Assembly: GCA_944323425.1 (NCBI GenBank)
Contig: CALUSL010000008.1
Coordinates: forward strand, 1 to 64,000
Reading direction: 5' to 3'
Source: Candidatus Gastranaerophilales bacterium
GTDB lineage: Bacteria; Cyanobacteriota; Vampirovibrionia; Gastranaerophilales; Gastranaerophilaceae
DNA length: 64,000 nucleotides
The notes under the pieces were generated by a model. It did not search any database, was not told the DNA's origin, and saw only the letters and a list, made by a program, of their open reading frames with translations. Below, one piece after another: positions 44,714 through 49,461 of this stretch (positions within the stretch are counted from its first letter, which is position 1; each line of letters begins with the position of its first letter). Made by a program: the position numbers and the translations under genes.

Positions 44714-45589
44714 TTATTGAATCAAGTTCAAAGCCAATGAAGGCAGCTGGTTAGCCTGTACCAGCAATGTTGCTGATGTCTGCTGCAGAATCTGCGCTTT
44801 CGTGTAGTTTGCACTTTCTTCAGCTATATCTGCGTCCATAATCGTTGATTTCGCTGATGTTGCGTTTTCTACTGTTGTTACCAGTGAATCTGCTGCTGAA
44901 TTCAGCCTGTTTTGTACAGCACCGATTGTTGCTTTTCTTGTTGTTACTTCCTGTAAAGCCGTATCTACACTTGCTATAAATTGGGCAGCTGCTGACGCAT
45001 TTGCAAATGCTTTTTCAACAGTATCAACATTTGTGTTACCAAATAATCCCAAAGTGGCTGCTGACGCACTTGCAAATACATTTGCTTCAACATAAATAGC
45101 ATTTGTATCAGCCTCTGAATTTGCACCTACCTGTAGTCTCAACCCATTAGGGCTTTCTTGAGCTATTGAACCGTCTAACAGATTCAATCCGTTAAAATTT
45201 GAAGCATGAGCAATTCTGTCAATTTCTGCTACACGGGCATTTACTTCGTCTTCCATTGCTTTTAATGATTTTGTGTCATAAACTCCGTTCGCTGCCTGAG
45301 TTGCCAGGTCTCTGATACGAAGAAGGTTGTCTTCTATTACTCCATAGTCGCCTTCTGCTGTCTGCAATACGTTTATCCCCGTTGCTACGTTATTCTGTGC
45401 TACTTTTGAACCCCTAATTTGTGTGTTTAAGTTTGATGCTACGAACATACCGGCTGCATCATCTGCTGCCGAGTTGATTTTCAAACCTGTTGACATTCTA
45501 TTCAACGCTGTGTTCAGTGAGTTTGTAGCACTGTTTAAGTTTGCCTGCGTTTTCAACGCAGACATATTGGTGTTAACGATAATTGCCAT
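44714..45589 (-). CDS. Flagellin, tandem copy 1
   Basis: A 291-residue flagellin. The N-terminal D0/D1 (IIVNTNMSALKTQANLNSAT, LNRMSTGLKINSAADDAAGM) and C-terminal D1/D0 (TIMDADIAEESANYTKAQIL, ending LALNLIQ) are complete. The exposed middle is short (Ala/Val-rich, YVEANVFASASAATLGLFG), giving a minimal flagellin. It is nearly identical to the next gene; differences cluster around residues 106-116 and 145-160 and at the last residues. It has its own terminator and upstream dyad, so the copies are separate units. Confidence 0.95.
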   Translation of the reverse strand: MAIIVNTNMSALKTQANLNSATNSLNTALNRMSTGLKINSAADDAAGMFVASNLNTQIRGSKVAQNNVATGINVLQTAEGDYGVIEDNLLRIRDLATQAANGVYDTKSLKAMEDEVNARVAEIDRIAHASNFNGLNLLDGSIAQESPNGLRLQVGANSEADTNAIYVEANVFASASAATLGLFGNTNVDTVEKAFANASAAAQFIASVDTALQEVTTRKATIGAVQNRLNSAADSLVTTVENATSAKSTIMDADIAEESANYTKAQILQQTSATLLVQANQLPSLALNLIQ

Positions 45590-45719
45590 TGTCGTACTCC
45601 TTTCGACTTTTATCTATTACGTCCTGTAATTTTTCCTATTCAATTGTTAGTTTTTTAACTTTTATTTTTTGTATAACGACGAATTAATGAATCATCCTTA
45701 CACATACATAATAACCCCG

Positions 45720-45790
45720 TATCGAAAATAACTTAATTCTTATTTAGTATGGAATTTTCCATACTAAAGTTTGAACTTTTTCAAAATTCT
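45720..45790 (-). promoter_or_regulatory. Flagellin promoter region with perfect 12-bp dyad (site B)
   Basis: On the plus strand tttagtatggaa-tt-ttccatactaaa (45743-45768) is a perfect 12-bp inverted repeat, extended by a second half ACTAAAGTTTGAA. Reading the minus strand away from it gives TAAATAAG followed by TTTCGATAC, with 18 bases between TAAA and CGATA (the FliA consensus has 17). So a sigma-28-like promoter overlaps the dyad, about 130 bases before the ATG. Confidence 0.6.
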
Positions 45791-45875
45791 GAGAGTAACT
45801 CTCAAGATTTAGGAAGTTTAATTTATAAAAATCAAGAAAATATTTCTTTAATTTGGCATGAAAAAAACAAAAATT

Positions 45876-45910
45876 TCAAAAAAAACGACTCTGAATTTTT
45901 TCAGAGTCGT
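45876..45910 (-). terminator. Rho-independent terminator of flagellin gene 3
   Basis: ACGACTCTGA and TCAGAGTCGT form a perfect 10-bp stem around a T/A-rich loop, with a run of Ts on the minus strand. It starts about 22 bases after the stop of the upstream flagellin. Confidence 0.9.
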
Positions 45911-45931
45911 AGTACCTGTTTGGAAAAATTA

Positions 45932-46807
45932 TTATCCGATTAAGTTCAAAGCAAGAGCCGGCAGCTGGTTAGCCTGTACCAGCAATGTTGCTGATGTCTG
46001 CTGCAGAATCTGCGCTTTCGTGTAGTTTGCACTTTCTTCAGCTATATCTGCGTCCATAATCGTTGATTTCGCTGATGTTGCGTTTTCTACTGTTGTTACC
46101 AGTGAATCTGCTGCTGAATTCAGCCTGTTTTGTACAGCACCGATTGTTGCTTTTCTTGTTGTTACTTCCTGTAACGCCGTATCTACACTTGCTATAAATT
46201 GGGCTGCGGCTGACGCATTTGCAAATGCTTTTTCAACAGTATCAACATTTGTATTACCGAATAATCCCAAAGTAGCTGCCGACGCACTTGCAAATACATT
46301 TGCTTCAACATAAATAGCATTTGTAGCAGCTTCTGAATTTGCACCAACCTGAAGTCTCAATCCATTAGGATTTGTGTCTGCTATTGAACCGTCTAACAGA
46401 TTCAATCCGTTAAAGTTTGAAGCATGAGCAATTCTATCTATTTCTGCTACACGGGCATTTACTTCATCTTTCATTGCTTGTAATGATTTGTCGTCATAAA
46501 CTCCGTTAGCTGCCTGAGTTGCAAGGTCTCTGATACGAAGAAGGTTGTCTTCTATTACTCCATAGTCGCCTTCTGCTGTCTGCAATACGTTTATCCCCGT
46601 TGCTACGTTATTCTGTGCTACTTTTGAACCCCTAATTTGTGTGTTTAAGTTTGATGCTACGAACATACCGGCTGCATCATCTGCTGCCGAGTTGATTTTC
46701 AAACCTGTTGACATTCTGTTCAGTGCTGTGTTCAGAGAATTTGTAGCACTGTTCAAGTTTGCCTGCGTCTTTAAAGCAGACATGTTTGTGTTAACGATAA
46801 TTGCCAT
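45932..46807 (-). CDS. Flagellin, tandem copy 2
   Basis: A 291-residue flagellin almost identical to the copy at 44714, with the same domain layout. Visible differences are YDDKSLQAMKDEV for YDTKSLKAMEDEV, a few residues around the variable loop (IADTNPNGL for IAQESPNGL) and the end QLPALALNLIG. The near identity at DNA level across most of the gene indicates recent duplication or ongoing gene conversion. It is a separate transcription unit with its own terminator and dyad. Two copies may raise filament subunit dose or give minor antigenic variants. Confidence 0.95.
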   Translation of the reverse strand: MAIIVNTNMSALKTQANLNSATNSLNTALNRMSTGLKINSAADDAAGMFVASNLNTQIRGSKVAQNNVATGINVLQTAEGDYGVIEDNLLRIRDLATQAANGVYDDKSLQAMKDEVNARVAEIDRIAHASNFNGLNLLDGSIADTNPNGLRLQVGANSEAATNAIYVEANVFASASAATLGLFGNTNVDTVEKAFANASAAAQFIASVDTALQEVTTRKATIGAVQNRLNSAADSLVTTVENATSAKSTIMDADIAEESANYTKAQILQQTSATLLVQANQLPALALNLIG

Positions 46808-47039: not shown

Positions 47040-47310
47040 ATCTATGTATTGCCCCGGTGGTCATGCGCTTCTGGATTATTGGCAGCTCGAAGTTCTACCA
47101 CTCGTTCTTTTTTGCATTTGCAAAAACTCACTCGTATCGAACTTCTACGCAGGACGTGCTGGGTGCTTTTCAAGCACACGGCGCACTTGCCAAGTCACTA
47201 TTTACAGACCAGAGCATATTTGTTTGTCTGTTACTTAGTCGTGACGCCATTTTTCAGGCTTCGCTATAGCTCAGCCGAAAAAGAAGGCAAATCCGCCGCA
47301 ATGACGTTTC
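47040..47310. repeat. Degenerate interspersed repeat block
   Basis: Between the promoter of flagellin 3 and the GLUG flagellin, the composition shifts to higher G+C. The block starts near tctggattattggcagctcg and ends aaatccgccgcaatgacg, the same end as the block at 8022-8163. Several short plus-strand frames run through it (47029-47333), none with a ribosome site or a recognisable product. It is best read as another copy of the mobile repeat family, or a decayed gene inside one. Confidence 0.5.
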
Positions 47311-47371
47311 TCTCTGTCATTATGAATGTCTGAAGACGCGAAGTAATCCGGTCAACCGGTGCCGTCTGTGT

Positions 47372-49461
47372 CTATTGTATCAATGACAGGACAATAGAGG
47401 AGTGAATGTTTTGAGACTGTGCAAGGAGAGCGGAGGAGGTTTGCTGTAGAATCTGACTTTTCACAAAGTCAGCAGATTCAGTAGCAATATCCGCATCCAT
47501 AATAGTGGATTTAGCTGCAGTGTAGTTTTGAATAGTAGTAGTTTGCGATTCAAGAATGGAGTTCAGACGGTTGATAGCAGCACCGAATTCAGCGCGTTTA
47601 GTATTAATTTGTTCAAGCACCGAGTCAATCTCATCAATAGCCTGAGCACAGGAATTGGCAGAGGTGAAGTCGACATTGAATTCACCAAGGTCAAAAGATG
47701 TGTCGACATAGATAGCAGAGTTTTCGGAAGAATCCGCGCCTATCTGAAGTCTAATAGAACCTAAGGGAGCCGGTTTGTCCGGATTATTCGGATCATCAGG
47801 GTCAGTTCCTCCACTGGGATTGTCAGGGTCTGTCGGGTCTTGTAGTTTATAAAGCTTGAATGTCGGGGGGAGTGTGGACATATCCCAGATATTTGTATCC
47901 CATCCGTTCCAGTTTGTAATGTCTTGCATTTGGGCAGATGTTAAACCTTTATTAGATGTATTTGTGCCGCTGTTATAGCCAAAGCCGTCTGCCTGTCCGG
48001 TTTTTTCTTTATCCCATATAGAATTCGAAATAAAGGCGTTTTCATTTCCTCCAATTAGTCCGCCGATATAGCTATTTCCTGTAATGTTACCTGTTGCATA
48101 TCCATTGGATATACGACTGTCTGTTGTGTTATAACCGACGAGTCCGCCAACTCCATAATCACCTTTGACGTTACCGGTAGCATAGACATTTGATATATTA
48201 CTGGTGTTGCTTCCGGCTGCTCCGACTAATCCTCCTACGTATGTGCTTCCTGTAACATTGCCTGACGCAAAGGAGTTAGTTATCTGACAATTGGTAATAG
48301 GTACCTGTATGCCTCCCGGTAGCGTTGGTTTTGTATTATACCATCCGTTTACTGCAACCAGCCCCCCTGCAGTATCTCCGGAAACAGTAACGGTTGAATA
48401 GCAGCTCTCTATTACTCCTCCGTTTCCTCCGACGAGTCCTCCTGAGACATCTCCTGATATCGTACCTGTCGTATAGCAGTTGGATATTACGGTATCGATG
48501 CTAATAGAAGCAATTGGACCTGAATAATAACTTGCGTTTTCTATATCGACATTTTCAAAACCAAGGTTTTTTATCTCTGCCTGATATGTTTGTCCAAAAA
48601 ATCCTGCTCCTCCGGTATTCTGCATTTTAAAATTTTGTATTGCGTATCCGTTGCCGTCAAATGTTCCGACAAAAGCAAGTCCGTTTTGGTATATTTCTTT
48701 ATTAGTTTCATACCAGTTATCATAAGCAGACAGGTCAATATCATTCATGAGAATAAATTTCCCGTCAACAAATCCGTTTGAATCCATATTGTCTATATTA
48801 AAAACTTTATCAATCAAATCCTGAGCGGATTTGATAACAGTATAGCCCTGAGCAATCGCCTCCTCTTCAGATAACCTGTTGACCTGCTGAATAAACCCCT
48901 GAGAACTTTTGGCATCGGGAGTGTTACTGAAAGTGTCTATACCCTGTAAACCCGCTTCCTGAGCTGAGTTAGAGCCTTTTTTGGGGGGGCTGAAAGTGAA
49001 GCAGTAGCTATGTCTGCACCAGCTAAACTCCACGTTGCATTAGCTGACCCAAAAATAGCCCTGCCGTTAAAACTCGTCCCCTCTTGAATCTGCCTCAACT
49101 GTGCAACAAGAGAATCAGCCTCATCCTGCATAGCTCCCAGAGAACTTTCATCATAAACCCCGTTAGCACCCTGAACGGCAAGATCCCTTAGCCTGTTAAG
49201 AATATCAGTCATATTAGCCAAACCTCCCTCAGCAGTGTTCAAGAGAGAAATGTCATCCTGAGCATTCTTCTGAGCCTGCCTGAGTCCCCTGATATTAGCG
49301 TTAAGGTTAGAGGCAACAAACAACCCTGCAGCATCATCAGCAGCACAATTAACCTTATACCCCGTGCTCATTCTGTAAAGAGCAGTATTAAGGCTGTTTG
49401 TAGCATTATTCAGATTACGCTGCGTCGTTAAAACCGACGGGTTGAAGTTCGTGGTAATCAT
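47372..49461 (-). CDS. Flagellin with large GLUG-repeat insert, split by a -1 frame change
   Basis: Two overlapping frames make one flagellin. Frame 1 (49461 to the stop at 48937) holds the N-terminal D0/D1: NFNPSVLTTQRNLNNATNSL, YRMSTGYKVNCAADDAAGLF, TSFNGRAIFG. Frame 2 (ending at 47372) holds about 5-6 GLUG-type repeats (GGLVGGNGG, VGGLVGAAGSN, VGGLVGYNTTDS, IGGLIGGNENAF), an Asp/Pro linker, then C-terminal D1/D0 (KSTIMDADIATESADFVKSQ). A -1 shift after codon 162, at A_AAA_AAG (48982-48976), joins them exactly into about 696 residues. Without it, a 174-residue truncated product results. GLUG repeats occur in adhesins and surface beta-helices, so the exposed domain may be adhesive. Decay or assembly error remain possible. 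Confidence 0.8.
48976..48990 (-). other. C7-A6 tract with A_AAA_AAG slippery heptamer
   Basis: On the coding strand the sequence is g-CCCCCCC-AAAAAA-gg. In the flagellin frame it reads gcc ccc cca aaa aag, so the heptamer A AAA AAG is in the phase used for -1 slippage in E. coli dnaX. The zero frame stops 12 codons later at 48937. Adding one C or A to the tract would also restore the full frame. No strong downstream stem or upstream Shine-Dalgarno stimulator is visible. Confidence 0.6.

Follow-up and report, generated by a model that had tools for sequence, protein, structure and literature searches.

Enlarged flagellin genes of Candidatus Gastranaerophilales probably act as homopolymer contingency loci

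In a 64,000-nucleotide stretch of a Candidatus Gastranaerophilales genome (hereafter, the window), an enlarged flagellin gene is divided between two minus-strand open reading frames (ORFs) that overlap in different frames, 49461 to 48937 (174 aa) and 49033 to 47372 (553 aa). The features of the locus, all on the minus strand, are as follows.

44714 to 45589, minus strand: second ordinary flagellin (291 aa), nearly identical to the next
45932 to 46807, minus strand: ordinary flagellin without insert or tract (291 aa)
47372 to 48982, minus strand: downstream half (linker, GLUG beta-solenoid, C-terminal flagellin domain), 536 aa past the tract in the -1 frame
47390 to 47638, minus strand: Flagellin_C domain (PF00700; E = 2e-16)
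47849 to 48886, minus strand: GLUG beta-solenoid insert, residues 50 to 395 of the 553-aa ORF (PF07581; E = 1.5e-16)
48976 to 48982, minus strand: A_AAA_AAG heptamer in the frame of the N-terminal half, proposed as a slip site in the preliminary description
48977 to 48989, minus strand: C7A6 tract between the N-terminal half and the insert (C7, 48989 to 48983; A6, 48982 to 48977)
48937 to 49461, minus strand: N-terminal flagellin half (D0/D1), 174 aa (Flagellin_N, PF00669; E = 2.3e-33)

The matches to the Flagellin_N, GLUG, and Flagellin_C profiles bear out the preliminary description of this gene as a flagellin with a GLUG beta-helix insert and two intact halves. Its account of the joint also holds: on the minus strand the sequence reads TCA GCC CCC CCA AAA AAG GCT, the two frames meet at the C7-A6 tract, the C-terminal half lies in the -1 frame, and A_AAA_AAG is in frame. 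The N-terminal half reaches a stop codon 14 codons past the tract, the C-terminal half contains no stop codon, and joining the two requires either one more C (C8) or two fewer (C5). With C7, the window copy is out of frame (OFF) in the present assembly, and the 174-aa N-terminal half is its product; C8 would put it in frame (ON). The Flagellin_C domain, which is required for flagellin polymerization, is present only in the joined product. The two short, tract-free flagellins beside the window copy (44714 to 46807) probably form the bulk of the filament. A dispersed intergenic repeat (ggattattggcagctcgaagttctaccactcg... / ...aggacgtgctgggtgc) occurs close to flagellins and elsewhere (window, 47049 to 47333; L009, 6584 to 6901; L091, 1609 to 1890; L132, around 1690 to 1920).

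The AlphaFold2 (AF2) model of the window insert has a pLDDT mostly above 85, and its Foldseek matches include a GLUG protein of Bacteroides ovatus (3n6z; E = 1.5e-9) and an IgA1 protease (6xja; E = 9e-5). As modeled, the fold of the insert resembles the N-terminal region of IgA1 protease. The model of an in-frame relative, L069, has helices at both ends and a beta-solenoid insert with a pLDDT of 80 to 90; it is moderate overall (mean pLDDT of 66.6), with poorly placed end coils, and by fold it matches IgA1 proteases and flagellins. Residues 139 to 195 of L069 form a linker that is predicted to be disordered and contains the tract, and extra Gly or Pro codons should therefore be harmless at this position. 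No peptidase catalytic domain was found in the inserts by Pfam, which returned only GLUG, M26_N (noncatalytic), Flagellin_IN, RTX, and DUF3060 matches.

The genome containing the window has ten Flagellin_N matches. A second insert flagellin, L009 (contig C1), is likewise split, at a pure C11 run without A_AAA_AAG. Its N-terminal half ends in HLPPPPKP at the C11 run, and the next frame encodes 1166 residues with RTX-like repeats and Flagellin_C. Repairing the frame of L009 takes one C fewer (or two more), a shift in the direction opposite to that needed by the window copy. The genome has a third insert flagellin, apparently broken across the ends of contigs C7 and C24 (L010 and L142). The insert ends of L142 and of L055 from genome G003 are nearly identical in protein and 88.6% identical in DNA over 579 bases, an identity above that of the other pairs compared; judging from these sequences, insert cassettes may have passed from one species or copy to another.

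We collected insert flagellins from three other species of the window's genus (g1) and from related genera; a plasmid DNA search for relatives gave no match. In twenty insert flagellins, an uninterrupted G or C homopolymer sits where the N-terminal domain meets the insert; as they appear in draft metagenome bins, where long G/C runs can be miscounted, these tracts are 7 to 13 nt long. Four species of g1 carry such genes, and a single one, L099 (RTX-type, G12, OFF), comes from one species of a second genus, g6. A C7 run is by itself ordinary in the window (1 found versus 0.87 expected by chance); the joint is significant because 19 more genes have a G/C tract, 8 to 13 nt long, in the corresponding place. 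The window C7 is the shortest of the 20 tracts, and the window copy may be slow to switch or fixed in the OFF state. Distances of the tract from the start codon are mostly about 455 to 476 bases, with extremes of 424 and 537.

Both ON and OFF alleles occur. The tract is out of frame in 13 of the 20 genes and in frame in 7 (L041, C11; L048, G11; L051, G11; L052, G13; L055, C11; L056, G12; and L049, G11), compared with an expectation of one-third ON under random slippage. L048 (G11, ON) and L045 (G12, OFF) differ at only 2 of 81 flanking bases. In every OFF gene (13/13) the break is located at the G/C tract, and the OFF classes run into a stop about 2 to 14 codons past it. Downstream of the tract the frames are open in all genes, for 432 to 1474 aa, except in L049, in which just 24 aa are open before the contig ends; the downstream frames of L044, L057, and L058 are likewise cut by a contig end, making four truncated genes. 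By pattern search, 12 of the 15 distinct G/C tracts of at least 9 nt in genome G003 lie at a flagellin joint (P of ~1e-30 under uniform placement). In the ON form, Flagellin_N and Flagellin_C fall at the two ends of a single protein, and both were found within one ORF in L061, L069, L074, L075, and L083. Enlarged flagellins that lack a tract are unsplit, including GLUG flagellins of a neighboring genus. The sole exception is L116 (G126:C25), an RTX-type insert flagellin split by two frameshifts without a tract, which we attribute to decay or assembly error and do not count as a family member.

The preliminary description proposed that the two halves are joined by -1 ribosomal frameshifting at A_AAA_AAG, and with transcriptional slippage as a variant, such a mechanism would yield the two products at a fixed ratio in every cell. 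The window joint shares an in-frame A_AAA_AAG with the dnaX programmed -1 frameshift. The frame and direction of this canonical heptamer suit the proposal, as does the open -1 frame of the downstream half, and both C_CCA_AAA and A_AAA_AAG, heptamers of the X_XXY_YYZ type, lie in the zero frame ahead of the stop. Unlike in dnaX, the site has no stimulators and is not conserved in relatives. Downstream RNA folding was no better than that of shuffled sequences (z = +0.14, +1.23, and -0.47), and no Shine-Dalgarno-like stimulator was seen upstream of the window joint when the sequence was inspected by eye. The heptamer is missing from all 19 other tract-bearing copies, so that neither the slip site (1 of 20) nor the split frame (7 of 20 are unsplit) is the conserved feature that the proposal would predict. 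Some copies need a shift in the opposite direction, among them L009, which points away from -1 ribosomal slippage since an A-rich heptamer cannot supply it, and seven are already in frame; L041 is an unsplit relative, open for 1160 aa with C11 and no heptamer, the kind of gene that the preliminary description itself named as refuting its proposal. On the basis of conservation, RNA folding, and comparison with the paralogue, we reject ribosomal frameshifting as the main mechanism and consider this explanation improbable, with a low-level frameshift leak possible in the window copy itself.

A homopolymer error in assembly or sequencing, with the true gene being C8 in all cells, is more improbable still. 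One more C would restore the frame, and the sequences do come from draft bins; however, C7 is short for a short-read error, out-of-frame tracts are also present in three other genomes, their lengths are as expected for random frames, and those of G003 fall mostly in the insert-flagellin family.

Selection on these genes was assessed from substitution ratios. In G003, dN/dS among OFF copies was 0.09, as it was among ON copies, both in the N-terminal domain and in the C-terminal domain past the break, compared with 0.29 in the insert among OFF copies. For the C-terminal domain, the ratio was 0.090 among OFF copies versus 0.098 among ON copies, and it was 0.05 between the window copy and L052. 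As judged from these ratios, purifying selection on OFF copies persists beyond the break. That the window flagellin is a decayed pseudogene now being lost, inactivated by its frameshift, is the least probable reading of all: ordinary translation of the assembly as it stands cannot yield the complete protein, and the doubly frameshifted L116 illustrates decay of an insert flagellin, but the window copy has no second lesion, constraint extends past the break, and all OFF genes are broken at the tract rather than elsewhere. The preliminary description had likewise argued against an old pseudogene, from the absence of further stops, and its suggestion of a mixture of truncated and enlarged products is likely to be right.

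Taken together, the recurrent tracts, the ON and OFF alleles, the open downstream frames, the constraint past the break, and the unsplit tract-free copies lead us to propose, with a probability of roughly 0.87, that the window gene and its relatives form a Candidatus Gastranaerophilales family of insert flagellins acting as homopolymer contingency loci. In the flexible linker that separates the N-terminal flagellin domain from the large beta-solenoid insert, a run of 7 to 13 G or C residues would be altered by one base at a time through replication slippage. One length class in three would then give the full enlarged flagellin, which could enter filaments made mainly of short flagellins, and the two other classes would give a truncated N-terminal product missing the C-terminal half. 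As several copies are present per genome, cells would come to carry different combinations of filament decorations. Switching would presumably be reversible within a clone, and the decorations, once incorporated into filaments, may have an adhesive or antigenic role. MutS and MutL are present, which rules out missing mismatch repair as the cause of the long tracts; these proteins usually dampen mononucleotide slippage, and their presence counts against slippage to that extent.

Contingency loci of this kind might go further in G003, where we give about even odds to a combinatorial coat of up to about 15 independent phase-variable flagellins with differing beta-solenoid inserts, from which a gut symbiont could build thousands of flagellar surface types. 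Such a coat would have near-invariant polymerization domains, with copy-to-copy recombination diversifying the inserts while homogenizing the ends. Among eight core copies, protein identity is 98% at the ends versus 56% in the inserts, and mean dS in the inserts is about twice that of the ends, which suggests that the ends may have been homogenized by gene conversion.

Tracts were also seen in other genes, among them surface genes of the genome containing the window, some of them split at the tract, which adds to the case for contingency loci. An orthologous gene for an AlgX/DHHW-like protein (about 490 aa plus a 110-aa N-terminal part) is split at G/C runs of 10, 12, and 13 in three species (L095, G000:C12:6824; L128, G003:C2:121136; L131, G001:C1:162739) and is likely another phase-variable surface-modifying gene. 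In two species, an Acyl_transf_3 gene carries a G tract of 11 bases close to the 3' end (L092, G000:C9:41393; L129, G003:C14:25932). The sequences of the AlgX/DHHW-like and acyltransferase genes point to a wider switchable gene set in the genus. The product of L087 (G000:C1:87663), about 900 aa long, is autotransporter-like and has Chlamydia-PMP repeats, and the gene contains an in-frame G9 run. Of 192 genomes sampled from the order, 129 contain G runs of 11 or more by pattern search, mostly within this one family, and genus g10 gave hundreds of overlapping G-run matches per genome. Order-wide, the genes with G runs may form a large and possibly unstudied set of switchable genes.

Slipped-strand phase variation is familiar in genes for flagellar modification or for the control of flagellar assembly, and flagellar phase variation in Salmonella is due to Hin/fljBA inversion. 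A poly-T tract in flhA causes flagellar phase variation in Campylobacter coli, as cited in PMC2831843. As in both of these systems, flagellin expression here would be stochastically ON or OFF; unlike in them, there is no invertible DNA, motility would not be all-or-none, and the switch lies within individual enlarged flagellin genes while tract-free short flagellins remain. The closest parallels are the homopolymeric-tract contingency loci of Campylobacter jejuni, such as cj1295 and the maf genes (PMC6321876, PMC3025981), which share coding-region G/C tracts of about 8 to 13 (PMC3025981) with one length class in three ON, and which are multicopy, surface-related genes, some of them acting on the flagellum. 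In C. jejuni, however, the tracts lie in flagellin-modifying enzymes, whereas here the filament subunit itself would be switched. Giant and enzymatic flagellins (PMC6248924; flagellinolysin, PMC5595980) also carry a large domain between conserved N- and C-terminal flagellin halves, but the present proteins have a GLUG or RTX-like solenoid with no protease catalytic domain by Pfam, and their expression would be gated by a tract. The insert shares its fold and GLUG repeats with the N-terminal region of M26 IgA1 proteases (PDB 6xja and 7uvk; also 3n6z), although it lacks the M26 catalytic domain and sits inside a flagellin.

Tract-driven phase variation (PMC6321876, PMC3025981, PMC2831843) and giant flagellins (PMC6248924) are thus each already known. 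Our search of the open-access literature found no report of slipped-strand phase variation inside flagellin structural genes and none of phase variation in Gastranaerophilales; as far as the papers searched show, the combination of tract switching and giant flagellins in one multigene family is unreported. If our interpretation is correct, flagellar display varies at random in a gut lineage that is represented here by metagenome bins alone, with inserts shaped like part of IgA1 protease, and the changing display would face host immunity, phages, or mucus.
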